Part shown: positions 1-20,754 of the stretch, piece after piece
Layout: each line of letters starts with the position of its first letter
Position numbering within the stretch: position 1 is the first letter of the stretch
Made by a program: the position numbers and the translations under genes
Source of the DNA: Kribbella catacumbae DSM 19601
Lineage (GTDB): Bacteria > Actinomycetota > Actinomycetes > Propionibacteriales > Kribbellaceae
Direction of reading: 5' to 3'
DNA length: 64,000 nucleotides
NCBI RefSeq assembly: GCF_000372465.1
Contig: NZ_AQUZ01000009.1
Span: 124,001-188,000 of the forward strand
The notes under the pieces: generated by a model
The model's input: the letters and a program-made list of their open reading frames with translations, nothing else
Told to the model about the DNA's origin: nothing
The model's database searches: none

Positions 1-3000
1 TCTACTTCCACACCGCTTACGAGGGGGGACAGTTGTACGTCGTCCAGCAGCTGATCGAATTATCCGGTCCGGTCGACAGCACAACTCTGCGCAGGGCAGC
101 GGAAACCCTGCTGTCCCGGCACACTGCCCTACGGGCCGCCTTCCGCGAACTCCCCGACGGTCGCTTGGTCCAGGTCATCACCGACAGCCCGAAGCCCGAC
201 TGGTCGGAACACACCCTCACCAGCTCCGCCGAGCTGACCGCACTCGCAACCGCGGAACGCGAGCGCCCCTTCAACCTCTCCCAACCACCCCTGATCCGCT
301 ACGCCTTGGCCGACCTCGGCAATCGCCACGTACTAGTCCAAACAGCCCACCACCTGATCGCCGACGGCTGGTCTGTCCCCCTGATGATCACCGACCTACT
401 GGCGTCCTACGGCTCCGAGACCGCCGCCCGACCAGCCCCTTCCTACGCCAACCACCTAACGTGGCTGGCCTCCCGCGACACAGACGCCGCCCGAACCGCC
501 TGGTCCGAAGCCTTTGCAGGCGTAGAAGACCCAACCCATCTCGCCCCCGCCCTCGCCGCTGGCGCTGGCAATGGACAGCGGCGGAAGCGGTTTGAGGTGG
601 CGCCGGAGGTTGCTGCGGAGTTGGTGAAGACGGCACGGGAGCTTGGGGTTACCTTCAGCAGTTTGGTGCATGTGGCCTGGGGGTTGGTGGCTGGGCGAGT
701 GACCGGTCGTGGCGACGTGGTGTTTGGGTCTACTACCTCCGGGCGGGGTAGTGAGCTGGTGGGGGTGGAGGAGACCGTCGGGTTGTTCATCAACACCGTG
801 CCGGCGCGGTTGCAGGTGCGGGGTGGTGAGAGTGTTGGCGAGTTGCTCGTGCGGTGGCAGGGGGAGCAGGCTGCGTTGCTGGATCATCAGCACCTCGGGC
901 TGGCGGAGATTCAGCGAGCTGCTGGGGTCAGCGACCTGTTCGACAGCCTCGTGGTGGTGGAGAACTACCCCGTCGGCGACGAGCAGCTGACTGACGCGAG
1001 TGGCGCGATCCGGGTCGAGAGCATCGACTACACGGATGCGACGCACTACCCGCTCACCTTGCTGGCCGAGCTGGACGACACGTTGACGTTGGAGCTTCGC
1101 CACGATCTGCAGTTGATCAGCGAGCAGGCGGGCGACGTACTGGCTGAGCGGTTCGAGCGGGTTCTCGCAGCAATGGCCGCTGACCCGAGTACGCCGGCTA
1201 CGGCTGTGCCGGTGATGGGTGATGCCGAGTACGAGCTGACCCTGGGTGCACCCGCCGACGTACCGGAGATCCACGACACCATCGTCGACCGGTTCGCGAC
1301 CCAGGTGCAGCTGCACGCCGATGCGATCGCAGTGACCGCAGGCGACAGCACCTTGACCTACCGGGAGCTAGACGCCCGCTCCAACGCCCTGGCCCGCCTA
1401 CTGGTCGACCGCGGCGTCGGCCCTGAGTCGCTGGTCGCCGTTGCGCTCCCACGCTCGGCCGAGCTGATCGTGGCGCTGCTTGCCGTGATCAAGGCCGGCG
1501 GCGCCTACCTGCCACTCGACACTGCCTACCCGGCTGACCGCCTCGGCTTCATGCTGGCCGACGCGTCGCCTGTCTGCGTACTGACCACCACCAAGGCCCG
1601 TACCGCTCTACCGTCGGGCTCGCCCGTACCGCTGATCCTGCTGGACGACCAGCGTCTGCCGAGCTACAGCGACCCGGTCACAGCCAACCTGCGCCCCGCC
1701 AACCCGGCGTACGTGATCTACACGTCCGGGTCGACAGGCAAGCCCAAGGGCGTTCCGGTGCCGCACGAGAACGTACTGCGGCTGCTCGACTGCACGCAGC
1801 ACTGGTTCGACTTCGACCACACCGACGTGTGGACTATGTTCCACTCCTACGCCTTCGACTTCTCCGTCTGGGAACTCTGGGGAGCACTCCTGTACGGCGG
1901 CCGGCTGGTCGTCGTCGACCACGCGGTCGCCCGCAACCCGGAGCAGTTCCGCGAGCTCCTGGCCGCCGAGTCCGTCACAGTGCTCAACCAGACCCCGTCG
2001 GCCTTCTACCAACTGATCGAAGCCGACCAGGCGAGCTCTGCCGACCTCAAGCTCCGGTACGTCGTATTCGGTGGCGAGGCGCTCGACCTGTCACGCTTGA
2101 AGCCCTGGTACGACAGGCACGAGCAGTCGCCGCGGCTGGTGAACATGTACGGCATCACCGAGACGACTGTGCATGTCAGCTACCTCGCACTGGATGCCGA
2201 TAGCGCTTCGAACGCGGGCGGCAGCCTCATCGGCGTACCGATCGATGATCTGGCGGTCCGGGTGCTCGACGACAACCTGCAGCTCGCTCCGGTCGGTGTG
2301 GCCGGGGAGATGTACGTCGCTGGCGGTCAGCTGGCCAGGGGATACCTGGGACGGCCCGGGCTGAGTGCTGAGCGGTTTGTCGCCGACCCGTTCGGGCCGG
2401 CCGGCAGCCGGATGTACCGGACCGGCGACCTTGCTCGGCGTGCTGCTGACGGCCCGCTGGAGTACTTGGGCCGCGCGGACGACCAGGTGAAGATCCGGGG
2501 CTTCCGGATCGAGCTTGGTGAGGTGGAGGCTGCTGTTCGCAGTCACCCGCAGGTGGCGTCCGCGGCGGTTGTCGCTCGGGAGGATCGGCCTGGCGTCGTT
2601 CAGCTGATCGCCTATCCGGTGGCTGGGCGCGAGCTGGACTTGCAGGCGTTGCGGGTGCACGTCGCGCGGGTGCTGCCCGAGCACATGGTTCCGGCGGCGT
2701 TCGTACCGGTGCCCGTCCTTCCGCTGACGCCGAACGGGAAGCTGGACCGCAAGGCGCTGCCCGCACCCGACTTCAGCTCAGCCGTCTCGGAGACGAAGGC
2801 GTCCAACCCGACGGAGGAGTTGCTCTGCACGCTCTTCGCCGATGCGCTTGCTCTCGATCGCGTCGGCGCGGACGACGACTTCTTCACGCTAGGCGGCGAC
2901 AGCATTGTCGCCATCGGCCTGGTCAGCCGTGCCCGCAAACAGGGTTTGCGTCTGACCCCACGCGAGGTCTTCGAACGCCGTACTCCGTCCGCTCTCGCCG

Positions 3001-6000
3001 CAGCCGTCGTCACCGTCGAGCAGGCAGCCCCGGTGCCGGTAGTTGCCGACGGCATCGGTGCGATCACCCCGTTGCCGATCGTCTCCCGGCTGTCCGAGTG
3101 GGGCGGCCGGATCAGCCGCTTCAACCAGTCGATCCAGCTGCAAACGCCGGCCGACGCTGACGAAGCCAGCCTGATCGCTGCACTCCAGGCGGTACTGGAT
3201 CACCACGACGGCTTGCGCCTGGCCCTGAGCCGCCCTGTGCCGATCCTGTGGTCACTGGAGACCACCGAGCCGGGCAGCGTCAACGCCGCCAGCCTGTTCC
3301 GCCGGGTGGCCGCGGGTGACGCTGCGCTGGTAGCGGCGGAGGCGGAGGCGGCTGCTGGGCGGCTGGATCCGGATGCTGGCGTGACGCTGCAGGCGGTTTG
3401 GTTTGATGGCGCGCCTGGGCGTCTGCTGTTGGTGGCGCACCACCTGGTGGTTGACGGGGTGTCGTGGCAGGTCCTGGCAGAGGACCTTGCGGCCGCCTAC
3501 GCAGCCGCGAAGGGCGGAGTAGCTGCCGGGCTCGCGGTTGTGGGGACGTCCTTGCGGGGCTTCGGGCAGGTGTTTGCGGAGCAGGCGCAGGATCCGGCGC
3601 GGCTGGCTGAGCTGGAGCATTGGACCACGACACTGGCCCCCGGGGGAGAGCTCCGTCCTGGGCCGGCTGCAACCACCTTCGGCGACGTAGTCGATCACCA
3701 TGCGACCGTGCCAGCTGAGGTAACGCGTGAGCTGCTGACCACCGTCCCTGCAACGGTCAAGGCGGGCATCACCGACGTACTGCTGGCCGCACTCCGTACT
3801 GCGGTCGCCCGCTGGCAGCAGGCCAACGGTGACGCCGTCACGGACCTCCTGGTCGACCTAGAGCGCCACGGCCGCGAAGAGATCACCCCAGGGCTCGACC
3901 TGTCTCGCACGGTCGGCTGGTTCACCAGCATCGCGCCGGTGCGGCTGCCCGGCGGTACCGACCCCGCCGAGGTTCTCACCCAGACCAGGGATGCCCTACA
4001 AGCCGTACCGGACAACGGCATCGGCTACGGCATGCTGCGCTACGCCAACGCCCGCACGGCTCCTCTCCTGGCGACGCTGCTGCAACCGCAGGTCCTCTTC
4101 AACTACCTGGGCCGCTCGAGTTCAGCAGACGCCGACTGGAGCTCCGAGTCAGTCCAGGTAGCCCCCGACGCAGACCTCGGCGTCCCCTACCTCCTTGCAG
4201 TAAACGCCGAATGCACCGAGACCGAGCACGGCCCTGTACTGCGAGCCGCCTTCGGCCACGACCCCAGCAAGCTGCCAGAGACCGATGTCGCCGCCCTAGC
4301 GCAGTACTGGGTGCAAGCACTGGAGGAGCTAGTCGCACTGAGCGGCAGTGGCATCCTGGCTCAGTTAAGGCCATCAGACCTCACCCTGGTCCAGCTCGAC
4401 GCCGACCAGCTCGCCCGAGTCACCGAGACCGCCGGTACTCAGCTCGCCGACGTCTGGCCGCTATCGCCCCTGCAGGAGGGCCTCTACTTCCACTCGGCGC
4501 TTGACGCCGACTCGGACGCCTACACCGCGCAGTTCTCGCTCGACTTCAACCACCACCTGGACGCAGACAGGTTGCGTGCGGCAGTAGCCGCGATGATGCA
4601 GCGCAACCCGATCCTGCGCGCCGGTTTCGCCGCCGACGGGCTGCCGGACCCGGTCCAGTTCGTCGCCGCCCAGCTCGACGTACCGCTGACTGAGGTCGAC
4701 CTCCGTGACCTGCCGCAAGGAGAGCGCGAAGCCCGAGCCGACCACCTGGCGGCCAGCGACCGGCAGCGGCCGTTCGACGTGGCCAAGCCGCCGCTGTTCC
4801 GCGTGCTGTTGATCCGGCTCGACGACAACCTCGACCGGCTGGTGATCAACCGCCAGATGCTGATCTGGGACGGCTGGTCCGGCAGCCTGGTCATCTCCGA
4901 ACTGCTCGGCCTGTACGCCGCCGCGAACCCCGCCGACGTCGCAGTACCGGCGACGACCTACGCCGACTACCTGCGCTGGCTCTCGGAGCAGGACACGGCC
5001 GAGTCAGAGCAGGCCTGGGCAGCGGCCCTCGCAGGCCTGGACGCACCGACACTGGTCGCTCCTGACGTCCGCAGTGCAGCCCCGACCACTCCCGAGCGCA
5101 CCCACCTGACCCTCGACGCCAATCTCAGCGAAGACCTCCGTACTGCGGCCCGCACCAACGGCGTGACTCTCAACGCCGTCCTGAACTCGGCCTGGGGTCT
5201 GGTACTCGCAGCTGTCACCGGCCGCGACGACGTGGTCTTCGGTACGACCGTCTCCGGCCGTCCGACCGATCTCGAGGACATCGACTCGGTCATCGGCCTG
5301 TTCCTCAACACCGTTCCGGCCCGGGTCGCGCTCGACCCGGCGGAGTCGGTGTCCGGTCTATTCGGCCGGGTGCAGAGCGACCGGATCGCGTTGATGGCAC
5401 ACGAGCACCTCGGCCTCGGTGCGATCCAGCGCGCGGCCGGGCATGCCCCGTTGTTCGACACTCTCTACGTCCTGCAGAACTTCGTGGACAGCCGCGAGGA
5501 CGACGAGCTGAGCCGGGAGCACGGCATCGTCGGTTCGAGCAGCTTGGACCACACGCACTTTCCGTTGACGATCGTCGTCGCGCCGGAGGAGCAGATCAAG
5601 ATCCGGCTGGAGTACCGGACCGATCTGCTGGATGCCGAGCTTGCCGAGGGAATGCTGAGCCGCTTCGTCGGCCTGCTGGAGCAATTGGCCGACCCGGCGA
5701 CCGCGGCCCGCCCGGTGGCGACGCTCGACGTACTGCGCCCGGCGGAGCACGCGGCGCTCGCGGAGGAATGGGCGGCAGCGGAGCACCCGTTGCCTGAGGC
5801 AACCTTGCCCGAGTTGCTCGCTCTGCAGACTGCCGCGATCCCCGATGAGATCGCGCTGGTCTTCGGAGACGAGCGAGTCAGCTACGCGGAACTCGGTGCC
5901 CGGATCAACCGCCTGGCACGCTTGCTGCTGGCCGAGGGCGCTGGTCCGGAGGAGATCGTCGCGCTGGCCGTGCCGCGCTCGATCGACACCGTGGTGGCTC

Positions 6001-9000
6001 TGTTCGCAGTACTGAGCACTGGCGCGGCCTACCTGCCGTTGGAGCTTGACCATCCCGTCGAGCGGCTGGCGGAGATGCTCGACGACGCCAAGCCTCGGCT
6101 GCTGATCACGACGACCGCTGTTGGCGCCACGCTCGCGCATACCGGAGTAGCGCTGGTGGCGCTCGACAGTCAGGACGTACGCGGCCGGTTGGCCGGCCTT
6201 GCGCCTGATGAGCTGCAGGCGGAGGAGCTTGGGCTGTTCGCTTCGGGGATGCCGCAGCGGCTGGAGCACCCGGCGTACGTGATCTACACGTCGGGGTCGA
6301 CTGGCCGGCCGAAGGGTGTCGTCACGCCGTACCGGGGGCTGACGAACATGCAGCTCAACCACCGGCAGGAGATCTTCGGGCCGACGGTCGCAGCAGCCGC
6401 GCGACGGCTGCGGATCGCTCACACGGTGTCGTTCGCGTTCGACATGTCGTGGGAGGAGCTGCTGTGGCTCGTGGAGGGCCACGAGGTGCACGTGTGCGAC
6501 GAGCAGCTCCGCCGCGACGCCGAGGGGCTGGTCGCGTACTGCGACCTGCACCGCATCGACGTGGTCAACGTGACACCGACGTACGCGCACTACCTGTTCG
6601 AAGAGGGCTTGTTGGAAGAGGGGGATGGCCGTCACCGTCCGCCACTCGTCCTGCTCGGCGGTGAAGCCGTGCCGGCCTCCGTGTGGGACAAGCTGCGAGA
6701 CACGGACGGTACTGCGGGCTACAACCTCTACGGCCCGACCGAGTACACCATCAACACTCTGGGCGGCGGCACGACCGACAGTGCTACACCTACGGTCGGC
6801 AAGGCCATCTGGAACACCCGCGGCTACATCCTGGACGCCTGGCTGCGCCCGACGCTGCCTGGTGTCGCAGGGGAGCTCTACATCGCGGGTACCGGGCTTG
6901 CGCGTGCCTATCTGGACAGGCCTGGGCTTACTGCTGAGCGGTTCGTGGCAGACCCGCAGGCTGCGGGCGGCCGGATGTACCGGACGGGTGACCTTGTCCG
7001 GCAGCGTCCTGACGGCAACCTGGACTTCCTGGGGCGTACCGACGACCAGGTGAAGATTCGTGGCTACCGGGTAGAGCTCGGTGAGGTCGAGGCCGCTCTG
7101 ACGCGGGCTCCTGGCGTCGCACACGCCGCAGTGGTGGCTAGGGACGACACTCGCGCTCCCGGGCTCCGCAAGCTGGTCGGCTACATCGTGCCGTCGGAGC
7201 CGGATGCAGCATTGGCTACGCAGGTCCGGAAGACGTTGCTGGCGCAGTTGCCGGAGTACATGGTGCCTTCGGCGCTGGTGGTGATGGATGAGTTGCCGCG
7301 GAATGCCAACGGGAAGCTTGATTTGAAGGCGTTGCCGGATGCTGAACCGGCCGCTCAGCATGCGCCCAGCCGGCCGCCGGCGAGTGCGGTGGAGGCGACG
7401 CTCTGCACGGTGTTCGCGGAGATCCTTGGGCTGGATGAGGTTGGTGCGGATGACGACTTCTTCGCGCTCGGTGGGCATTCCCTGCTCGCCACACGGCTCG
7501 TCAGTCGCGTGCGGGCCGAGCTGGACGTCCAGCTGGCGATCCGCGATCTCTTCGAGGCGCCGACGGTCGCCCAGCTCGCCTTGCGAGTCGCCAAGCCTGC
7601 TGCAACGGCTCGACCGGCTCTGACGGCACAGCCACGCCCAGAGCGCATCCCACTCGCCGCAGCCCAGCTACGCCTTTGGCTGACCGACGAACTGGACGGC
7701 ACTGCCGCCTACAACTACCCACTGGTCGCCAGACTCGAGGGCCCGCTCGACCTCACGGCACTGGAGGCCGCAGTAGGCGACGTCGTGCTCCGGCACGAGT
7801 CGCTGCGCACACTGATCGGCGAATACGAAGGCGACCCCTACCAGCGCGTCATGGACCCCGCTGACCTCCCGCAGGTCGTAGTACAGACCGACTGCGATGA
7901 GTCGCAGGTTGCTGAGCTCGTAGAGCGTGCCGCAAGCCGGCCGTTCGACCTACGGCAGGAACCGCCCATCAGGGTTGAGGTACTGCGCCTAGCGGCTGAC
8001 CAGTACGTGCTGGCGATCGTGCTGCACCACATCGCCACCGACGAGTGGTCTGACCGTCCTCTCCTCGCAGACCTGGCTACTGCCTACGCAGCCCGGCAAA
8101 ACGGCAAAGCACCGGCCTTCGAGCCGCTGCCCGTGCAGTACGCCGACTACACCCTTTGGCACCGGCAGCTGCCTGACACCGAGGCACTCGACTACTGGAA
8201 GCAAGCACTCGCCGGACTACCCGAAGAGATCCCGCTGCCGGTCGACCGGCAGCGCCCGGCTGACCGCGGTGGTGCAGGCGGTCAGGTCGAGCTGGAGCTC
8301 TCGCGCCAGACCTACGACGGTCTGCGCGCCCTGAGCCTTCGCACCGGTGCAAGCATGTCGATGCTCTCCCACACGGCCGTAGCAACTCTCCTGCACCGTT
8401 TGGGATCCGGCGACGACATCCCGGTCGGCGTACCGATCGCGGGCCGCAACGACGGTGCTCTCGACGACCTGGTCGGCTTCTTCGTCAACACCCTCGTACT
8501 GCGTACAGACTTGTCAGGCGACCCCACATTTGCCGATCTGCTGACGCGGGTGCGCGCCAACGACCTGGCTGCGTTCGACCATGCCGACCTCGGGTTCGAC
8601 CAGGTCGTCGCGGCGCTCAACCCACCGCGCGTCGCCGGCCGTACGCCGCTGTTCCAGGTCATGACCGGCTACCACCACCGTGCCGGCGACGACGACCAGC
8701 TGCTGGGCCTGCCGACCGAGTGGTACCCGGTACCAGCCGGGCCGGCCAAGTTCGACCTCGACTTCACCTTTGTCGACCGTGCCGACGAGAAGCTCATCCT
8801 GTTGCTGGACTACGCCCTCGACATGGTCGAGCCAGGGACCGCAGAGCGCCTCCTGCAGTCGATGGCACGCCTGCTGGACCTGGTGGTAGCGACTCCGGAT
8901 GTCCCAGTCAGCGCTCTGCAACTGCTGGACCAGCAGGAGCGAGCACGAGTCCTCGCCGCCTCCGAAGGCCCGGTAAGGCCGGTGCAGGACGAGTCCCTGA

Positions 9001-12000
9001 TCACGCTGTTCGCCGCCGAGGCCGCCGCTCACCCAGACCGGCGCGCGCTCGTCACCAGCGCCCGCAGCTGGACCTTCGCCGAGCTGGCCGCTCAGGCGGG
9101 TGCGGTCGCAGCAGCGCTGGGCGCTGGACCAGAAGACGTTGTAGGCCTCGACCTGCCCCGCGCGGAGATGGTGCCCGCGATTCTCGGTGTCATGGCCAGT
9201 GGAGCCGCCTACCTCCCACTGGACCAGGACTTGCCGGCGGAGCGACTCGCCTTTGTCCTCGAAGACGCAGCCCCGGTCTGCGTGCTGAGGTCTATCGCCG
9301 ACCTAGCGCCGGCCGAGCTGGACCCGGTTGCAGCGCCCGCCGACAGCGCGGCGTACGTGATCTACACCTCCGGCTCCACCGGTACGCCGAAGGGCGTCGT
9401 CGGCACTCACCGCGGTTTGAGCAACCTCTATGCCTCCGCGCAGGCAGACGTGATCCTCTCTGGGCAAGCGCGGGTCCTGCACTCGGCATCCTTCAGCTTC
9501 GACGCATCGCTGGAGATCCTGCTGTGGCTGATCGCGGGCCATGAGCTGCATGTGGTGGACGTCGAGCAGTTGCACGACCCCGCCACGCTCTACGACTACC
9601 TGCAGCGCGAGCAGGTCGACCACCTCGACATCACGCCGAGCTACCTGTCGGAGCTGATCGAGCTGGGCTTCCTTGCCCCCGACAAGTACCGCCCGGCCGT
9701 GCTGACGGTGGGTGGAGAGGCGACGCCACCCGATGTGTGGCAGCAGCTGTGCGCCGCTGACGATCTGGTCGTCCACGACATCTACGGGCCCACGGAGTAC
9801 ACCGTGGATGCCTATGCATGGCACGGTCCGGCAGGGGACAAGCCTGCCTGGTCTGCACCGATCGCCAACACCACAGCGAAGGTCCTGGACGCGCGCCTGC
9901 AACCTGTCGGCGTCGGTGTCCCAGGTGAGCTCTACCTGTCGGGTCCCGGCCTGACGCGTGGCTATCTCGGCCGCCCCGGGCTCACTGCGGGCAGGTTCGT
10001 CGCAGACTCGTACGGCGTGCCTGGTGCTCGCATGTACCGCACAGGAGACCTCGTACGCCGTCGTGCGGACGACAGCCTGCAGTTCCTGGGTCGCGTGGAC
10101 GACCAGGTGAAGCTGCGCGGCTTCCGCATCGAGCTAGGCGAGATCGAGACCGTACTGCGAACGCATGCCGACGTCTCGGCCGCTGCAGTCATCGTGCGCG
10201 AGGACACTCCTGGCGTGCAGCGTCTGGTTGCGTACGTGGTCTCCGCTGGGGTTGAGGCCGACCAACTGCGCGAGTACCTCTCCAGTCGGCTGCCGAGCCA
10301 CATGGTGCCGGCGGCGTACGTAGTACTGGAGTCGCTGCCGCGCACTGTGGCTGGCAAGCTCGACAAGCGGGCACTGCCGGTTCCCGTGGTTGAGGCTGGG
10401 AGTGCTAGGCCGTCGACGGCAGAGGAGGCGTTGCTCGCCGGGTTGGTGGCGGAGATCCTTGGGCTCGAGGAGGTCGGCAGAGATGACGACTTCTTCGTGC
10501 TGGGCGGCAACTCCCTGCTGGGGATGCGGTTGCTCAGCCGGCTGCGAGTACAGGCGCCTGTGCTGGCTGCTGGGGTGACTCTGCGGACCGTGTTCGATGC
10601 GCCGACTCCTGCTCGACTCGCTGCGCGGCTAGGCGGCGGTGTTGGCAAGAGGCGGCCCGAGCTGGTCGCAGGCGAGCGGCCGGTGCAGCTGCCGCTTTCC
10701 TTTGCCCAGCAGCGGATGTGGGTTCTCAACCAGGTCGAGGGCGGACCGGCGTACAACATTCCGCAGGCCTGGTACCTGACCGGAGTACTCGACGTCGAGG
10801 CGCTCCGAGCCGCAGTGGGTGACCTGCTGGCGAGGCACGAGGCTCTGCGCACTGTGTTCCCGCAGTGCAACGGTGTGGCCCACCAGGAGATCCTGTCGGC
10901 AGTACCCGAGCTGACCGTCTACGAGATCGACCCGAGCGAGCTTGACCGCCAGCTGACGGCAGCATCGGAGTACGAGTTCTCACTGGAGACGGAGATCCCG
11001 CTGCGGGCCTCGCTGTTCCGCACGGGCCCTGAGGAGCACGTACTGCTCCTGCTGGTCCACCACATCGCGGCCGACGAGTGGTCGGACGAACCGATGACGC
11101 GCGACCTCGGTACGGCGTACGCGGCTCGACTAGAGGGCTCTGCGCCGACCTGGACACCGCTGCCACTGCAGTACGCGGACTACTCGCTGTGGCAGCGGCA
11201 GCTGGCCGGTGACGACCAGCTGGCCTATTGGCGGTCGACCTTGTCCGGCTTGCCGGAGGAGCTGTCACTGCCGACCGACCGGTCCCGTCCGCTGGACCCG
11301 GACGGGACCGGCGGGGAGGCCCGTTTCGCCCTCGAGCCGGAGCTGACCGACCAGCTGCGAGCAGTGGCGCAAGACAGCGGCTCCAGCATGTTCATGCTGC
11401 TCCACGCCGCAGTGGCCGCCCTGCTGCATCGCCTGGGCGCCGGTGACGACCTGCCGATCGGTACGCCGATCGCCGGCCGCGACGACGAGCGACTGGCCGA
11501 CCTGGTCGGCCTGTTCCTCAACACCGTCGTACTGCGCACAGACGTGTCTGGTGCACCCACCTTCGCGGAACTGCTCAGTCGCGTGCGCAGTACCGACCTG
11601 GCGGCGTACGAGAACGCGGACGTGCCGTTCGACCGAGTGGTCGAGGCGGTCAACCCGGCGCGGTCACTATCCCGCCATCCGCTCTTCCAGGTGATGGTGA
11701 TGTACCTGAACGCGGCCGAGTCCGGGCGCGGCCTGGAGCTGCCGGGGCTCGCCGTCCGGCCGGTGCCGGTGTCGGACACGACGGCGAAGTTCGACCTGTC
11801 CTTCGACTTCGCCGACCTGGGCGGGGCGGGGACCGAGGCGAGCATCCGCTACAGCGCGGAGCTGTTCGACCAGTCGACGGCGCAGACCTTCGCCGACCGG
11901 CTGGTGGCGATCCTGCGAGCCGTCGCGGCCGATCCGTCGATTCCGCTCGGCGACATCGAGGTGCTGACCGACGCGGAGCGCGAGCTGGTCCTGCACACCT

Positions 12001-15000
12001 GGAACGCCACTGGAACGACGGTTCCGGAGACGACGCTGATCGACGAGTTCGAGCAGCGCGTCCGCGAAGTACCGAACAACCCCGCGGTCTGGGCCGAGAC
12101 AGGCCAGGCGACGTACGCCGAGCTGGACCGCGAGGCGAACCAGCTGGCTCGGCTCCTGCGCGAGTACGGCGTACGGCCCGGTGGCATCGTCGGAATCGCG
12201 GTACCGCGGTCGGTGTCGATGGTGGCGACGGTCCTTGCCACGTTGAAGATCGGCGCGGCCTACCTGCCGCTCGACCTGAGCCATCCGGCGGATCGGCTCG
12301 CCTACATGGTGGAGAACTCCGGAGCCAACCTGGTCGTCGGCACTACGCAGGTTGCAGCAGAGCTCCCGACGGCTGGTCGGGTAGTGCTGCTCGACGAGCC
12401 CGACACGGCCGGCCGCGTGGCGCAGTACAGCTCCACGTCTGTGGAGCGACCGGACCTGGGGCTGGAGCAGGCGGCGTACGTGATCTACACGTCTGGCTCT
12501 ACCGGGAAGCCGAAGGGCGTTGTGGTGCCGCACGAGGGCATCGGCTCTCTGGTGGCGACTGCTGTCGAACGGATGGGGCTGCAGCCGGACAGCAAGGTCC
12601 TGCAGTTCGCTGGTGTCGGGTTCGACGTTGCTGTGTTCGAGTTGGCTATGGCGCTGTGCATGGGAGGGGAGTTGGTGATCGCGCCGGAGGAGGTGCGGGT
12701 CGCCGACAAGGTCCTGTCGGACTTCCTGACCGAGACCGCCATTACCCACGCCATTCTGCCGCCGTCGCTGCTGTCGGCCATGCCTGCTGACTGCGACCTG
12801 CCGGAAGGCATGACGGTGCTGGTAGGGACCGAGACTGTGCCGCCGGACCTAGTGAGCCGCTGGGCCGAGAGGTTGAACCTCCTGGTCGCCTACGGGCTGA
12901 CAGAGGCGACTGTGAACTCCACGCTCTGGCTGACGCAGCCGGGCTGGGCGGGTGCGGTTCCGATCGGCATCCCTGACCCCAACACGAAGACCTACGTGCT
13001 GGACGCGGGTCTGCGACCAGTACCGCCCGGTGTGGTGGGTGAGCTGTACGTCGCCGGTCGCGGGCTGGCTCATGGCTACCTGCGCCGGCCGGGACTCACT
13101 GGGGAGCGCTTTGTGGCCGATCCGTTCGGTGCGCCGGGCAGCCGGATGTACCGGACGGGCGACCTGGCTCGCTGGCGCGCCGATGGCAACATCGACTTCC
13201 TGGGACGCAGCGACGACCAGGTGAAGGTCCGGGGCTTCCGGATCGAGCTGGGAGAGATCGAGGCGACACTGGCCACGCATCCCGCAGTACGGCAGGTGGC
13301 GGTCACTGTGCACCGCTCCAATGGCGTTACTCGGCTGGTGGCCTATGCCGGCTTGGGGGATGAGGTGGTTGAGCCTGCGGAGCTGCGGGCGCACCTGGCG
13401 GCGACCTTGCCGGAGTACATGGTGCCGGCGCTGGTGACCGTGCTGGACTCGACACTGCCGCTAACCCCGAACGGCAAGCTGGATCGAGCGGCACTGCCCG
13501 TCCCCGACTTCTCCACTGTGACTACCGGGACAGCACCGAGTACTCCGGTCGAAGCAGCCCTCTGTACGGCGTACGCGGAGGTGCTCGGGCTGCCGCAGGT
13601 CGGAGTGGATGACGACTTCTTCGCGCTCGGCGGCGACAGCATCGTGGCGATCCGGCTGGTGAGCAAGGTGCGGGCGGCAGGCTTCCGGGTGACACCGCGG
13701 CAGGTGTTCCGGCATCGCACGGTCGCGGCGCTGGCCGGGGTGGCCGCTGGCGTTGCCGTTGCTGAAGGCAACGATGACGGGGTCGGTGAGATCCCGCTGA
13801 CGCCGGTGCTGCACTCGCTGTGGGAGGTCGACGAGCCGCTGGACGGCTTCAGCTCTCCCGCCTTGGTGCAGGTGCCGGCTGGGCTTCAGGAGTCCTTGCT
13901 GCACGACGTACTGCGGACTGTCGTGGCGCGGCATGACCTGCTGCGTGCGCGTCTTGTTCGTGGCCCGGAACCGGTGCGGGACAGCGATAGCCAGGCGCCG
14001 TGGTCGCTGCGTGTGCCCGCTGAGCAGACCGACCCCGCGCAGTGGACCGAGCGGGTCGACGTGAGTACGGTCGAGGACTTGCCTGGCTACATCGCCGAGC
14101 ACGCCGCACAGGCGACGTACCGGCTCGATCCGGATGCCGGGCAGATGGTACGAGCGGTTTGGTACGACGCGGCCGGCCGGCCGGGCAGGTTGCTGCTGCT
14201 TGTGCATCACCTGGTGATCGACGGGGTGTCGTGGCGGATCTTGCTGGATGACCTGGCGCTTGCTGCTCGCGAGCTGGCTGCTGGGCGGACTGCGGAGTTG
14301 GCTCCGGTGCCGACGTCGTTCCGGCGCTGGTCGCAGCTGTTGGTGGATGCTGCGAGTGCGCGGGCTGTGGAGTTGCAGCTGTGGACTGACGTGCTTGCCG
14401 GTGCATCGGGCTTGCCTGTCAAGCGTGCTGTGGATCCCAAGCGGGATGTGCTCGGCAAGGAGACGGTCAGGGTGACGCTTCCGACTGAGGTGACGAGTGC
14501 CTTGCTGTCGTCGGCGCCGGCTGCCTTCGGGGTCGGTGTGGACGACCTCTTGCTGGCGGCGCTTGGGCTGGCCGTTGCGGACTTTGGTGAACGCCCTGTG
14601 GTGGCTGTGCAGACGCATGGTCGGCAGGAGCAAGTTGCTGGTGAGGTTGATCTGTCCAGGACTGTTGGGTGGATCGCTGATCTTGTGCCGGTGCGGTTGG
14701 ATCTTGCGGGGGTTGACGTTACGGATGCGTTGGCTGGGGGCGGAGCGCTGGCTACTGTGCTGGAGCGGGTTGCTGGCCATAGGTCCGCGCTACCTGACGA
14801 TGGCGCTGGGTACAGCCTGCTGCGGCACCTCAATCCGGACACCGTGCCGGTGCTGGCTGCTGCGGGAGTGCCGTCGATCACCTTCAACTACGAGGGCCGC
14901 TTCGACCGACCGGAGTCGGTTGACTGGGCCAGCGCGGCAGAGTCGGATGACGTGTTCGCCGACTGGGGTGCCGATCGACCGGCGCACTACGCCCTATCGG

Positions 15001-15146
15001 TCTTCGCGCGCACAGCTGACCGCCCCGAGGGCCCGGTGCTGATGGCCGAGTGGCACGCGCCAGAAGGCGTACTCGAACCAGCCACAGTCGAACACCTCGC
15101 AGCCACCTGGACGCAGGCCCTGACTGCTATCGCTAGCTCGACCTGA
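1..15146 (+). CDS. Nonribosomal peptide synthetase, four modules visible, 5' end outside window (probable hydroxamate siderophore)
   Basis: The reading frame is open from base 3 and enters inside a condensation (C) domain at residues YFHTAYEGG, so the gene starts upstream. Domains in order (approximate bases): C 1-1230 (HHLIADG at 348-368), A 1280-2790, PCP 2800-3010 (GGDSI), epimerisation E 3040-4400 (HHLVVDG at 3438-3458), C 4430-5730, A 5790-7340, PCP (GGHSL), C 7630-8940, A 8990-10390, PCP (GGNSL), C 10680-11970, A 12010-13510, PCP (GGDSI), E 13790-15140. No thioesterase follows. Adenylation pocket codes read by alignment to the GrsA Phe domain are DFWNVGMVH (threonine type), DMENLGLIN (the code associated with N-hydroxyornithine), DAEDTGIVD (acidic residues at 239 and 278 suggest a basic ornithine-like substrate) and DVFILGAVN (unassigned). 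The product therefore contains at least D-Thr, hydroxyornithine, X and a D-residue. Threonine, hydroxyornithine and the nearby formyltransferase recall coelichelin, but there are more modules. The second C domain lacks the catalytic HH motif (see findings). Substrate calls are inference. Confidence 0.97.
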
Positions 15147-16345: not shown

Positions 16346-18106
16346 TTAGGTGCGGGTGCCTGACCAGGCTGACCAGAGTTCGGAGTAGCGGCCGCCGGCG
16401 CTGACCAGGGCGTCGTGGGTGCCGCTTTCCACCACGCAGCCGTGGTCTAGGACCACGATCTGGTCGGCTGTTGCTGCCTGGGTGAGGCGGTGGGCCACCA
16501 CTAGTGCAGTGCGGCCTTCGAGCGCCGCACCGGCTGCCTGCTCGAGGATGCGTGCGCCCGCGCTGCCAGCCTCCGCAGTGGCCTCGTCGAGGATCGCGAC
16601 AGGCGGGTCAATAAGGATGAGCCGGGCAAGAGCCACCTGCTGTGCCTGCGCCGCCGTCAGCTGGAGGCCGTCCTCGCCCACGTTAGTAGACAGGCCATCA
16701 GGCAAGGCCAAAGCCCAATCCACAGCGCCGACCTTCGTAAGGGCCGCAACCAGCTCCTCGTCGCTAGCACCCGGCCGAGCCAGACGTAGGTCATCCGACA
16801 GCGGTCCGGCAAAGACGTGGACCTCCTGCGTGATCAGTACGACCTGTCGCAGCGCCTCATCAGCACCAGTGATGCTGATACTGCCTTCGGTAGGTTCATG
16901 TACCCCAGCGACCAGCTTCGCCAGTGTCGTCTTGCCTGCCCCACTAGCGCCGACCAGCGCAGTACGACTGCCTGCAGCCAGCTCAAGATCGACATCGCGC
17001 AGTACTAGATGCCCAGGCTCGTACGAGTGAGTCACTGCCTTCACAGTGACCGCCGCCGGAGTACCAGCTGCCTTGGCGACCGGTCGAGGCGCCGAGGTGT
17101 CCAGTTCGACCACGCCGACCAAGCGAGCCAGGCTGACTGTCGCCATCTGGACCTCGTCGAAGAGGAACAGTACGGACGTGATCGGCCCTAGAAGTGCGTG
17201 GAAGTAGAGGGCGGCAGCAGTGGCTGCACCGACGCTCACTGCGTCGACGCGGACCAGCCAGAAGCCAGTCAGCAGCACGCTCGTCAGGCTGATCACTTCG
17301 GCCAGGTTGAGCCGGTTGAAGAACCGGGTCTGCAGCAGGATCTCGGTGATGCCCAGCTCGGCGTTCGCTCGGGAGCGGCGCTCGACCTGGCGTTCGTGGT
17401 CGTCGGTGATGCGTAGCGCGCGGACAGTGGCTGCGCCGCCGATCGTGTTGAGCAGCTGGTGCTGCTGGTCTCCGATGATCGTGCGGTGCTTGGCGTAGAG
17501 CGGCATGGAGCGGCGTACGTACCAGCGGGCTGTCCAGACCTGCAGCGGCACAGCAACAGCGGCCGCGAGCATGAACCGCCAGTCCAGTACGCCGAGCCCG
17601 ACCAGCGTCAAGGCGATCATCAGCGACGACCGAGTGAACTCCGGTACGGCGTACCGCAGCGCCTCGCCGATCTTGTTGACGTCGTTGGTGATCCGCGACG
17701 ACAGGTCGCCCGAGCCGGCACGTTCCAGCTGACCCAGAGGCAGCTCGACCGCCCGCTCGACGAAGGCCTCCCGCAGCCGGCTCAGCAGCACTTCGCCCAG
17801 CCGGGAGCCGGTCGACGTACCGAGCGCATTGAGCACGCCTACCCCGACGGCCACCACGGCCAGCGAGATTGCGGGGAGGGTCATCGAACCGGCGCCGCGG
17901 CCGTCGACGACCAGGTCGACCATGTGTCCGAGCAGTGGCGAGACCAGTAGCCCCACAGCAGTCGCTGCGATCAGCAACACCAAGGCGCCAAAGGCCAGCG
18001 CGCGATGCGGACGGACAAGGCGGCCCAGCGCAGCCCAAGTCCGGCGAGCAGAGGCCACAGGCAGAATGTCGCGCGAAGGAGCCTCTAGATGATCGGTCAC
18101 AGTCAT
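16346..18106 (-). CDS. ABC exporter half-transporter (membrane domain fused to ATPase), partner A
   Basis: This 586-residue protein has an N-terminal membrane domain (about residues 35-330) fused to an ATP-binding domain. Walker A is GASGAGKTT (386-394), Walker B is VAILDEAT with its catalytic Glu (503-510), and the H-loop is VVAHR. The signature motif is degenerate: LTAAQ at 483-487 in place of LSGGQ. The neighbour at 18125-19801 has the opposite defects, so the two should form a heterodimer with one working ATP site. The start is 18 bases after the partner's stop codon, with GGAAGG before the ATG. Its place in the iron-boxed operon behind the formyltransferase suggests siderophore export, though reuptake or drug export cannot be excluded. 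Confidence 0.92.
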   Translation of the reverse strand: MTVTDHLEAPSRDILPVASARRTWAALGRLVRPHRALAFGALVLLIAATAVGLLVSPLLGHMVDLVVDGRGAGSMTLPAISLAVVAVGVGVLNALGTSTGSRLGEVLLSRLREAFVERAVELPLGQLERAGSGDLSSRITNDVNKIGEALRYAVPEFTRSSLMIALTLVGLGVLDWRFMLAAAVAVPLQVWTARWYVRRSMPLYAKHRTIIGDQQHQLLNTIGGAATVRALRITDDHERQVERRSRANAELGITEILLQTRFFNRLNLAEVISLTSVLLTGFWLVRVDAVSVGAATAAALYFHALLGPITSVLFLFDEVQMATVSLARLVGVVELDTSAPRPVAKAAGTPAAVTVKAVTHSYEPGHLVLRDVDLELAAGSRTALVGASGAGKTTLAKLVAGVHEPTEGSISITGADEALRQVVLITQEVHVFAGPLSDDLRLARPGASDEELVAALTKVGAVDWALALPDGLSTNVGEDGLQLTAAQAQQVALARLILIDPPVAILDEATAEAGSAGARILEQAAGAALEGRTALVVAHRLTQAATADQIVVLDHGCVVESGTHDALVSAGGRYSELWSAWSGTRT

Positions 18107-18124: not shown

Positions 18125-19801
18125 TCAGGCCAGCACAGTCGCGCGGTAGGCCTCGTGGTCTCGGATCAGTTCGGCATGCGTGCCGGACGCAGCCACAGCG
18201 CCAGCCTCGACCACAGCAACGCGGTCAGCCGCTGCAAGCAGGGCAGGGCTAGTGGTCACCACAACAGTCGTCATACCGGCCCGCAGCGAGCGGATGCCAG
18301 CAGCGATCCGTGCCTCGGTGACAGTGTCCACTGCTGTGGTCGGCTCATGCAGTACGAGGATCTGCCGGTCGGCGGCGAAGGCACGGGCCAGTGCGATCCG
18401 CTGCCGCTGTCCGCCCGACAGTGTCTGGCCCCGCTCGGTGATGGGGGTGTCCAGTCCAGCATGCAGACCGTCAGCGACCTCGTCGGCACTGCTAGAACGC
18501 AGTACTCGCTCAAGGTCGAGCGAGCCCGCTGCAGTGACGTTGTCCCGCACAGTGCCCTCAAAGAGCGCCGCGCCATGGTTAGCGACCAGTATGGCCGCCC
18601 GTACGTCGGCCGGCCGCAGGTCGGTCAGTTTGACTCCGTCCAACGAGACCCAGCCCGCACCAGGCTCGACCTCGCGAGCCAGACAACGCAGCAGAGCGAT
18701 GGAGTCGGCCGGGTCGGAAGCGACCACGCCGAGGATCTCGCCAGCTTCCACATCGAGGTCGAAGCCGTCCAACGTGTCATGGGTCAGCCCGCGGATGCGC
18801 AATGAGCCGCGCAACGGTGTCGGCAGTACTGCGTTCCCGCTGCCGACCGCCGGAGCAGCGGCCAGCACCGAGGCCACTCGTCCCGCGGACGCCCGGCCTT
18901 GGGCGAACTCCGCATTGACGACGCCCAGCAAATGCAACGGATCGACCAGGAACTGCGCGAGCCCGACCGCCGCGATGAGCTCCCCGATGCTGATCGAACC
19001 GGTGGCCGCGAGCCGCCCGCCGATCAGCGCCACCACGGCGAGGAAGATGCCGTTGACGATCAGGATCGAGCCGTCGTACCACGCGTTGGCCCGGGTCGCG
19101 CGAAGCCTTGCCTGCAAGGACTCCTGGCTCGTCGCGCGGTAGCGATCGACCGCCGCGGGCTGGGCGCCGATGCCGATGAGTACGCGCAGACCGGAGATCA
19201 GGTCGGCGGCGATCCCGGAGGCGTGGGCGGCACGCTCCTGCTCGGCGTCGGCCCGCTGCTGCAGCGGGTGGCCGAGCTTGTGGATCAAGAGCAACAGCAA
19301 GGGCGTACCGAGCAGCACCAGCAAGCCGAGCGGAAGGGAGATGCGCAGCAAAGCGACCGCGGCTACGAGCAGGCCGATGACTGCACTGATGCCGTGGGCA
19401 ACGGATCCGTTGACGTAGCTGATCCGCTCGGCATCCGACGTCGCGATGCTGGTGAGACTGCCCGGCAAGCGGCCGGTCTCGGCGCCACCCTGGTGGTCGA
19501 GCACGCGACGCGTCAGCTGCATCCGCAGGTCGTGCTCGGCGTTGACCAGCGAGCGGCGGCAGGCGCGGGCGCCGTACAGGTAGCTGTAGGACAGCATCAC
19601 GAAAACGGCGAGCAGTACGCCGAGCCAGCCGGCGATCGCGCGGCTGTCGCCGGTCGCGACGCCACGGTCGATGACCGCGCCGATCACCAACGGGACAAGG
19701 GTTTCACCGACCTGATAGCCGGTGAACAGCACCGCCGCGACCGCTACCTGCCGCCACTGCCCACGGATCGATCCGAGCAGGACAGACCGGCCGGTCGCCA
19801 T
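18125..19801 (-). CDS. ABC exporter half-transporter, partner B with degenerate nucleotide-binding motifs
   Basis: This 558-residue protein has the same fold order as partner A (membrane domain about residues 20-300, ATPase domain after 335). The P-loop position reads VVASDPADSI (359-368) and has lost the GxGK(S/T) lysine. The Walker B region is ILVLHEPT, with Asp replaced by His, and the H-loop histidine is replaced by Thr (VVVTTSP). The signature LSGGQ (461-465) is intact. This is the classic pattern of an asymmetric heterodimeric exporter in which this subunit supplies LSGGQ to the active site of partner A. The ATG overlaps the formyltransferase TGA by one base (TGATG), so the genes are translationally coupled. 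Confidence 0.9.
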   Translation of the reverse strand: MATGRSVLLGSIRGQWRQVAVAAVLFTGYQVGETLVPLVIGAVIDRGVATGDSRAIAGWLGVLLAVFVMLSYSYLYGARACRRSLVNAEHDLRMQLTRRVLDHQGGAETGRLPGSLTSIATSDAERISYVNGSVAHGISAVIGLLVAAVALLRISLPLGLLVLLGTPLLLLLIHKLGHPLQQRADAEQERAAHASGIAADLISGLRVLIGIGAQPAAVDRYRATSQESLQARLRATRANAWYDGSILIVNGIFLAVVALIGGRLAATGSISIGELIAAVGLAQFLVDPLHLLGVVNAEFAQGRASAGRVASVLAAAPAVGSGNAVLPTPLRGSLRIRGLTHDTLDGFDLDVEAGEILGVVASDPADSIALLRCLAREVEPGAGWVSLDGVKLTDLRPADVRAAILVANHGAALFEGTVRDNVTAAGSLDLERVLRSSSADEVADGLHAGLDTPITERGQTLSGGQRQRIALARAFAADRQILVLHEPTTAVDTVTEARIAAGIRSLRAGMTTVVVTTSPALLAAADRVAVVEAGAVAASGTHAELIRDHEAYRATVLA

Positions 19802-20754
19802 CAGGAGGTCGGCGAGGACGTCAGATACCCGCCCATGGTGGTGAAGTAGTCCAGCGCCGCCAGCTCCTGGCCGTCCTCGGTCCGGACCCGCTCGATCACG
19901 ACGGCGGGGTTCTCGCCGGTGCGCGCGTCGGCACCGGCGACGATCGCGACGCCGGGGCCTTCGCGGAAGAAGATGCGGCCGGGCGTACCGCCGTACCGGG
20001 CGGTGGACAGGGATGCCTTGAGGATGCTCAGGCGCTTGCCCTTGTGGAAGGTGTAGGCGTTCGGGTACGGGTCCGGCTGGGCGCGGACGAGGTTGACCAC
20101 GGACTGCGCGGGCCAGGTCCAGTCGATCCGGTTGTCGATGTCGGCGCGCTTGTGGAAGAAGGTCGCCTTCGACCGGTCCTGCGGCGGCCAGTCGGTTCGG
20201 CCGGTCGCGATCAGGTCGATCGCGTCGACGGTGATCGGGCCGAACAGCGCCAGGGTCGCGTGGAACAGATCGACCGTGGTGTCGGCCGGGCCGACCGGGA
20301 CGGATCGCTGCAGCACGATGTCGCCGGCGTCCAGCTCGGCGTTCATCATGTGCGCGGTCACGCCGACCTCGGTCTCGCCGTTGATGATCGCCCAGTTCAG
20401 CGGCGCGAACCCGGCGTACCGGGGGAGCAGGGCGTCGTGCACGTTCAGGGTGCCGTAGCGGGGCAGCTCGAAGACCGCCGGCGGGATCAGTGTGCGCCAG
20501 TTGGACGCCACGATCAGGTCCGGGTCAGCCTCCTTGAGCTGCTGCAGCAGTTCGGCGTCGTCCGGCCGGTTGCGCTCGATCACCGGTACTCCGGCGGAGG
20601 TGGCCAGCTCGGCGACGGAGTCGCTCCAGATCTGCTCGTACGCGCCCTCCGCGGGTGGGTGCGTGACGACCAATACGACCTCGTGCTCGGACTCCAGCAG
20701 GGCCTGCAGGGTCCGATGTCCCCAGGTCATGGCACCGAGCATGACGACGCGCAT
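19801..20754 (-). CDS. Formyltransferase, probably N-hydroxyornithine formyltransferase for siderophore synthesis
   Basis: The 317-residue protein belongs to the methionyl-tRNA/GART-type formyltransferase fold. Asn104, His106 (in LNVHDALLPRYAG) and Asp142 (in LDAGDIV) have the same spacing as the catalytic Asn108-His110-Asp146 of E. coli Fmt. It lacks the tRNA context and is first in an iron-boxed operon with the exporter genes, opposite mbtH. In coelichelin-type clusters an equivalent enzyme (CchA type) transfers a formyl group from 10-formyl-tetrahydrofolate to N-hydroxyornithine, which the NRPS then loads. No ornithine N-hydroxylase gene is visible here; it would be expected upstream of the window. 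The substrate is inferred from context. Confidence 0.85.
   Translation of the reverse strand: MRVVMLGAMTWGHRTLQALLESEHEVVLVVTHPPAEGAYEQIWSDSVAELATSAGVPVIERNRPDDAELLQQLKEADPDLIVASNWRTLIPPAVFELPRYGTLNVHDALLPRYAGFAPLNWAIINGETEVGVTAHMMNAELDAGDIVLQRSVPVGPADTTVDLFHATLALFGPITVDAIDLIATGRTDWPPQDRSKATFFHKRADIDNRIDWTWPAQSVVNLVRAQPDPYPNAYTFHKGKRLSILKASLSTARYGGTPGRIFFREGPGVAIVAGADARTGENPAVVIERVRTEDGQELAALDYFTTMGGYLTSSPTS

Follow-up and report, generated by a model that had tools for sequence, protein, structure and literature searches.

Loss of the second motif histidine in condensation domains of hydroxyornithine modules, seen from a Kribbella peptide synthetase

Described synthetases and the Kribbella locus

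The role of the second histidine (His2) in the HHxxxDG motif of condensation (C) domains is under debate (PMC11546977). For FscG of fuscachelin biosynthesis, calculations gave a zwitterionic intermediate whose proton passes to His2, and the authors considered that water could accept the proton where His2 is mutated; the H2697Q variant of FscG C3 kept about 1% of the activity with Gly, which counts against His2-free catalysis (PMC8097023). ORF18 of streptothricin-type biosynthesis carries HQxxxDM and is an active C domain, so His2 is not an absolute requirement (PMC11546977). The coelichelin synthetase takes formyl-hydroxyornithine, Thr and hydroxyornithine (hOrn) (PMC9854754). In the open-access literature searched, as far as its text was accessible, no statement was found that C domains of hOrn modules lack His2; the searches did not bring up the first reports on coelichelin, erythrochelin and scabichelin, where an earlier notice may stand.

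The window analyzed here, i.e., the whole stretch of 64,000 nucleotides from Kribbella catacumbae DSM 19601 (contig NZ_AQUZ01000009.1, positions 124,001 to 188,000), opens inside an NRPS gene. The frame 3 ORF (window 3-15146, plus strand) extends upstream and, with the adjoining stretch (L007), forms a single NRPS of 7570 aa (gene G000:C9:116434-139146, start upstream of the window), whose C-terminal 5047 residues are encoded in the window. All its domains lie on the plus strand. Module 4 includes a C domain (6-1235, Pfam PF00668) with a canonical HHLIADG at 348, an A domain (1293-2348, PF00501) with the Thr-type code DFWNVGMVH, and an E domain (3072-4343, found by our own C/E profile) with a canonical HHLVVDG at 3438. 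Module 5 is composed of a DCL-derived C domain without His2 (4461-5732; Pfam, our C/E profile, tree, AF2 model and structure comparison), an A domain (5832-6914, PF00501) with the hOrn-type code DMENLGLIN, and a carrier (T) domain (7398-7580, PF00550). Based on motif and C/E profile, the C domains of modules 6 (7653-8924, HHIATDE) and 7 (10695-11963, HHIAADE, followed by the acyl-hOrn-like code DVFILGAVN) are canonical, and a C-terminal E domain (13797-15143) carries HHLVIDG. The synthetase terminates in this E domain (13797-15146), with no thioesterase (TE) downstream in the same frame.

The nine-residue classical codes of the A domains in this NRPS were DVPHVSLVE (Ser-like), DVWHVSLVD (Ser), DFWNVGMVH (Thr), DMENLGLIN (hydroxyornithine), DAEDTGIVD and DVFILGAVN (acyl-hydroxyornithine-like). 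Here, we take DMENLGLIN to stand for hydroxyornithine, DINYWGGIG for formyl-hydroxyornithine and DVxIxGAxN for acyl-hydroxyornithine. The first two assignments agree with the known substrates of the coelichelin synthetase (PMC9854754) and with the domain order of the coelichelin-type loci described below. A starter gene (A-methyltransferase-T), whose code by eye resembles the acyl-hOrn type, and an ornithine monooxygenase gene were found upstream of the NRPS. Downstream, the minus strand encodes an ABC transporter that combines membrane and ATPase parts and probably serves export (16346-18106, PF00664/PF00005), a second one of the same make (18125-19801, PF00664/PF00005) and a formyltransferase (19801-20754, PF00551/PF02911) that fits a formyl-hydroxyornithine siderophore. 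The gene set as a whole would fit a tris-hydroxamate siderophore.

The original prediction, made from the letters of the window, had been that QMLIWDG replaces HHxxxDG in the C domain between the Thr-module E domain and the hOrn A domain, with the rest of the domain kept and HH kept elsewhere in the protein. All of this was borne out. At 4854-4874, frame 3 reads CAG ATG CTG ATC TGG GAC GGC, and module 5 C aligns to the solved C domain of McyB (microcystin synthetase) as NRQMLIWDG on NHHHIILDG without a gap at the motif, so that Gln (4854-4856) sits at His1 and Met (4857-4859) at His2, with Trp (4866-4868) before Asp. The codes DFWNVGMVH and DMENLGLIN were read in that order on the two sides of the domain, and HH was present in 8/8 other C/E domains of the same NRPS. 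The motif Asp-Gly (4869-4874) is retained and was invariant in an alignment of 27 members. The Pfam Condensation profile matched window 4200-9000 in two stretches (E 1.3e-160 for the whole piece), the better being the module 5 C domain, and this profile match with a two-lobed CAT-like fold places the domain in the NRPS condensation superfamily PF00668. It lies directly after an E domain and groups with DCL rather than LCL domains. QMLIWDG lacks the first Asp of the heterocyclization (Cy) signature DxxxxD.

A register shift, i.e., HH one residue earlier plus an extra residue, was considered and rejected: HHHILWDG (L309, L310) and HHLILWDG are equally long and differ only at His2, and several members have one His or none. 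A sequencing error was ruled out as well, since 17 other genomes (L038-L054, all of group f21) independently read NRQVL[LV]WDG at this place.

Among the known systems, canonical DCL domains (PF00668) share with the window domain the fold, the place after an E domain, the C1 motif and the tree position, and differ in that the window domain has neither His1 nor His2, has Trp before Asp and has Gln/Arg in place of Glu at position 339 (query numbering). In coelichelin-type loci, the order A(DIxYWGGIG)-T-E-C-A(Thr)-E-C* was read (L225, L226; C*, a His2-less C domain), with an hOrn A domain next (L095, L096). The third C domain of CchH, as we name it by architecture and codes (L094-L097, L225, L226), thus repeats the order of the window: Thr module, E domain, His2-less C domain and hOrn-type A domain. 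However, its YHLLLWDG keeps His1, its identity to the window domain is 40% (L096), and its module is the last one, while that of the window is internal. An NRPS of S. scabiei 87.22 (L200) is likewise of this kind.

Two four-module synthetases (L139, L318), which we assign by architecture to the erythrochelin/foroxymithine type, have an internal hOrn module like that of the window, with HHLILWDG, as well as two acyl-hOrn-type modules; they keep His1 and end in a C domain with HY, whereas the window NRPS ends in an E domain. For one Streptomyces, the assignment of a cluster to foroxymithine has been no more than tentative (PMC9769785). Fuscachelin-like terminal hOrn modules (C-A-T-TE; L131, L134, L317; named by architecture) share the A code of the window and adjoin its domain in the tree, but retain HH and have Met rather than Trp before Asp. 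ORF18 resembles the window domain in the replacement of His2, but has Gln there and couples an aminoglycoside with an oligopeptide of beta-lysine (PMC11546977). The kineochelin and albisporachelin papers, in their accessible parts, describe C-terminal cyclic or alpha-linked residues, which have no bearing on a delta link.

Distribution of the His2-less motif

A single-sequence scan of genome contigs gave 45 stretches and no relative, whereas an alignment-based scan did find relatives. No close ortholog was seen in the genome of the window and 36 others of the genus, the best match outside its own locus having 45% identity. Based on a search of 394 class genomes, 31 C domains were read (window, L009, L038-L066), and the His2 site was L, V or M in 31/31. 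Beside the window, 17 of the 31 (all f21) read NRQVL[LV]WDGWS; the others read, for example, HHLILWDGWS, RHLILWDGWS or HHVLLWDGWS. The link to hydroxyornithine emerged when the next A domain was read in the collected loci.

We then started from the A domain. Among the class matches listed with at least 63% identity, 54 hOrn-type A domains were collected; the upstream C domain lacked His2 in 50 cases and had it in 4. The f20 sample (200 genomes) added 74 places, 65 from new loci and 9 from loci already collected, and the g83 genus sample (37 genomes) added 17. After removal of 6 repeats of a genome place from 136 rows, His2 was missing in 118 of the 130 distinct hOrn modules and present in 12, the C domain being located through a set of previously observed motif variants, exactly one per locus. 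The DMxN code was visible in 133/136 rows; in G363 (first copy), G347 and G125, the code was cut off by the end of a frame or escaped the pattern used, and these three rest on the A-domain match instead. Because the loss recurs in 118/130 hOrn modules, chance is not at issue. The original prediction had left it to alignment whether the change is clade-wide in coelichelin-type hOrn modules. It is, coelichelin-type synthetases included, and the possibility it had named against itself, that related domains all keep HH, was not seen. QMLIWDG can be put down neither to a sequencing error nor to one isolated dead domain. The loss of His2 often marks hydroxyornithine modules and is no peculiarity of this protein, and the His2-less domains of these modules are a real, widespread variant of known C domains.

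The converse was assessed on the initial set of loci, which gave 417 C-A pairs, a few of them from duplicated loci. All 126 C domains without His2 stood ahead of an hOrn-type A domain; 4 pairs had His2 and hOrn, 275 had His2 and other A domains, and 12 had gaps at the motif, so that His2 was kept in 275/275 scorable domains ahead of non-hOrn A domains. It should be noted that the named loci are the best 80 of at least 583 relatives (at least 594 stretches), selected for their similarity to a Streptomyces domain, which makes this set biased, and that they were found with a pattern from His2-less domains, so that their 79 His2-less hOrn pairs count only for the statement that loss implies hOrn.

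Within the 118 His2-less domains, the His2 site was always hydrophobic (L 76, F 21, V 20, M 1). Asp was preceded by W in 99, by L in 11 and by F in 8 of them. In the 12 His2-bearing hOrn domains, the preceding residue was M in 7, W in 4 and A in 1, and Trp at this place was found in 0/275 C domains ahead of other A domains. A rule that Trp always precedes Asp was rejected, given the 19/118 His2-less domains without it; Trp also stands there in 4/12 His2-bearing domains. The domain in the window agrees with the proposed subtype in having M at His2, W before Asp and DMEN[LM]GLIN in the next A domain.

C domains ahead of the acyl-hOrn-like codes DVxIxGA[VT]N showed HH in 125/125 pairs. Presumably, the delta-nitrogen of acyl-hOrn is blocked, leaving only the alpha-amine to react. 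These pairs comprise 68 LCL-type and 57 mostly N-terminal, starter-like domains, not DCL ones, and therefore are no matched control. In the scripted readings of the A codes, letter three is wrong in many rows (E, D or Q for a true W, F or Y); it enters no grouping, and the exact codes were taken from a separate nine-residue reading. Also, chelators were counted in 80 ORFs with an hOrn module (the named set and the window): 53 contained two acyl-hOrn-type A domains, 23, including the window NRPS, contained one, and 4 contained none. In the 53 ORFs that have two acyl-hOrn modules beside the hOrn module, a third hydroxamate requires acylation of the hOrn delta-nitrogen by the chain, and the chelator count would thus argue for a delta link.

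Phylogeny, exceptions and constraint

A tree built from 214 C/E domains put the window domain into a clade of 53 rows, all without His2 (SH-aLRT 99), which adjoins the His2-bearing hOrn domains inside the DCL part. In a more careful tree of 92 rows, 31 His2-less rows stood on one side of a branch (100/100). The HHHILWDG rows, which combine His2 with Trp, join these 31 (97/83), and the fuscachelin-like rows and L089 join next, giving 43 rows (100/95). This hints at an order from HH through the gain of Trp with His2 kept (HHHILWDG) to the loss of His2, although L089, itself His2-less, lies outside that branch. L089 (G424, at a contig end, with the next domain beyond it) reads HHTLLWDG, with Thr, not a hydrophobic residue, at His2.

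In f20, hOrn-module C domains with SELILLDG were found (L127, L228-L231, L233-L237, L241, L245, L313), with His1 replaced by Glu, His2 by Leu, and no Trp. This group lay apart from the 31 rows in the quick tree, and a common origin was not rejected (p-AU 0.194). The claim of an independent second loss was dropped, as the AU test keeps one clade possible; SELILLDG domains are possibly a separate loss. As the AU test leaves room for the loss of His2 to have occurred just once, the counted rows stand for far fewer independent events.

The 12/130 hOrn modules with His2 led us to reject an absolute rule that hOrn means no His2. Ten of the 12 were shown to end in TE and two were read too short; none has a further C domain. 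Of the 118 His2-less modules, 50 have another C domain after them (distinct modules; 55 rows with repeats) and two a TE (G178, G270), while the remaining 66 were read too short or end without TE or a further C domain. These two TE-terminal modules count against the reading that the delta-nitrogen is acylated.

The largest His2-bearing hOrn group resembles the fuscachelin synthetase, and in the loci read further upstream (L134, L317) its preceding modules are Gly, Gly and Ser. In fuscachelin, a cyclic hydroxamate seryl ester is made up of Ser and hOrn, and for this Ser has to sit on the delta-nitrogen (PMC13251462). Fuscachelin-like domains thus keep His2 though the delta-nitrogen is acylated, and a hydroxylamine acceptor permits the loss of His2 but does not force it. 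The hOrn of fuscachelin bears a second chain, on its alpha-amine. This second acylation might be why these domains keep His2, although such an explanation is special pleading.

Based on 120 overlapping, non-independent pairs of named loci, the median dN/dS was 0.229 for the His2-less C domain, 0.153 for the hOrn A domain and 0.266 for the following HH C domain; the His2-less C domain is under purifying selection. The AF2 model of the module 5 C domain (pLDDT 89.6), used for the fold only, aligned to the C domain of SrfA-C with Z 40.5 and rmsd 2.8 over 413 residues, and solved C domains were matched over nearly the full length in a structure comparison that realigns Foldseek's own matches only. 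According to this confident model, the domain has an intact predicted C fold, and apart from the two lost His it is well preserved.

The columns of 54 His2-less domains (L089 with its Thr among them) were compared with those of 59 HH DCL domains. Both sets were picked by motif (WDGW and HH, respectively), so their Trp and His figures are circular and only the other columns count. No base was newly fixed at the motif. The clearest changes outside it (query numbering) were Glu to Arg/Gln at 339, Gln to Arg at 308 and Gln/His to Glu at 315. Position 354, with His in the His2-less set, differed as well.

Proposed mechanism and alternative explanations

Based on the above results, we suggest that module 5 C belongs to a functional, DCL-derived C-domain subtype for free N5-hydroxyornithine, which would form a hydroxamate through the delta-nitrogen with no general base (probability of about 0.58). 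The loss of His2 accompanies an acceptor with a free delta-N-hydroxylamine, and this pattern points to the acceptor. An N-alkylhydroxylamine is mostly present as the free base at neutral pH, its acylation intermediate should shed a proton easily, and, as an alpha-effect nucleophile, it attacks thioesters readily. Since such a group is unprotonated and strongly nucleophilic, the role of His2 as a base or in positioning may become dispensable. The module 4 E domain would deliver a D-configured peptidyl thioester, and this donor would be attacked by the delta-N-hydroxylamine of hOrn rather than by its alpha-amine, giving a backbone hydroxamate. Catalysis would be achieved by binding, orientation and oxyanion stabilization, with water taking the proton, and the bulky hydrophobic side chains could adapt the shape of the acceptor pocket to the delta-nitrogen, which reaches further. 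We infer the hOrn substrate of the module 5 A domain from its code, and the linkage and the activity likewise. On the whole, the His2-less hOrn domains suggest histidine-free bond formation rather than a dead enzyme. As a tentative generalization, held at slightly less than even odds, the subtype may make hydroxamate bonds with no catalytic His, and [HQR][LVFM][LIV][LIVA]WDGWS may predict a backbone that runs through the delta-nitrogen of hOrn.

The alternative that survives best, though we regard it as unlikely, is that catalysis has been lost and the scaffold kept, so that the domain docks both carriers and the hydroxylamine attacks the thioester unaided. Hydroxylamines do cleave thioesters without help, no base has become fixed at the His2 site, and the strong constraint seen elsewhere in the domain would also fit docking. 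The Asp-Gly invariant in the 27 aligned members and the hydrophobic His2 site in 118/118 domains are more than docking seems to need, which argues mildly against it.

Another active-site residue acting as the base is less probable still. The columns that differ between the 54 His2-less and 59 HH DCL domains, such as Gln/Arg for Glu at 339, Glu at 315 and His at 354, offer candidates; however, none is invariant (339 is Arg or Gln, 315 is Glu in 87% and 354 is His in 80%), and none lies at the motif. The suggestion in the original prediction of a different catalytic residue accordingly found no support at the His2 site itself, where L, F, V or M stands in all 118 domains.

It is rather improbable that the alpha-amine of hOrn is acylated by proximity alone, with the loss of His2 being mere tolerance in siderophore synthetases. 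The TE-terminal G178 and G270 and the fuscachelin-like HH domains blur the delta-nitrogen rule and so leave some room for this explanation, but in synthetases of this kind HH stands in 125/125 pairs ahead of acyl-hOrn-like codes, and 53/80 ORFs, by their chelator count, call for hOrn acylated at the delta-nitrogen.

That the domain is dying or inactive and bypassed by the assembly line, as the near-dead His2 mutant of FscG C3 might suggest (PMC8097023), is very improbable given the clade-wide occurrence (118/130), the purifying selection, the intact fold and the presence in coelichelin-type synthetases. Both options offered by the original prediction, an inactive domain and catalysis by another residue, fit less well than the reading of a free hydroxylamine acceptor.

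With a large natural set of C domains that lack His2 and share a single, chemically distinct acceptor, the role of His2 becomes directly testable. Such a set may also improve structure prediction for hydroxamate siderophores, warns that genome-mining filters should not call His2-less C domains dead, and offers a possible route to engineered hydroxamate bonds.

Some further altered domains were noted in the collected loci. At the C-terminal end of the NRPS in L139, L318 and many of the named loci, the C domain that follows the last acyl-hOrn-type module carries HY (LTMHYLTVDEWS) instead of HH in 47/80 ORFs, SY in six and HW in one. HY-type terminal C domains are perhaps a second His2-less class, acting in release or diketopiperazine formation. 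In Amycolatopsis (L207, L211, L218), an epimerase-like domain reads AHPVLLD, and the replacement of the second His by Pro makes epimerization there doubtful. Three f21 loci (L220, L222, L224) share the Thr-E-C-hOrn half of the window NRPS and have an adjoining gene with a heterocyclization-like (DxxxxD) domain, which is missing from the cluster of the window in the part read, as in an exchange of module blocks. Finally, short hOrn modules in the genus g83 (L263, L266-L269, L271-L273, L311) bear the strongly altered motif TTYWFGCFDGGSS, still ahead of DMENLGLIN.
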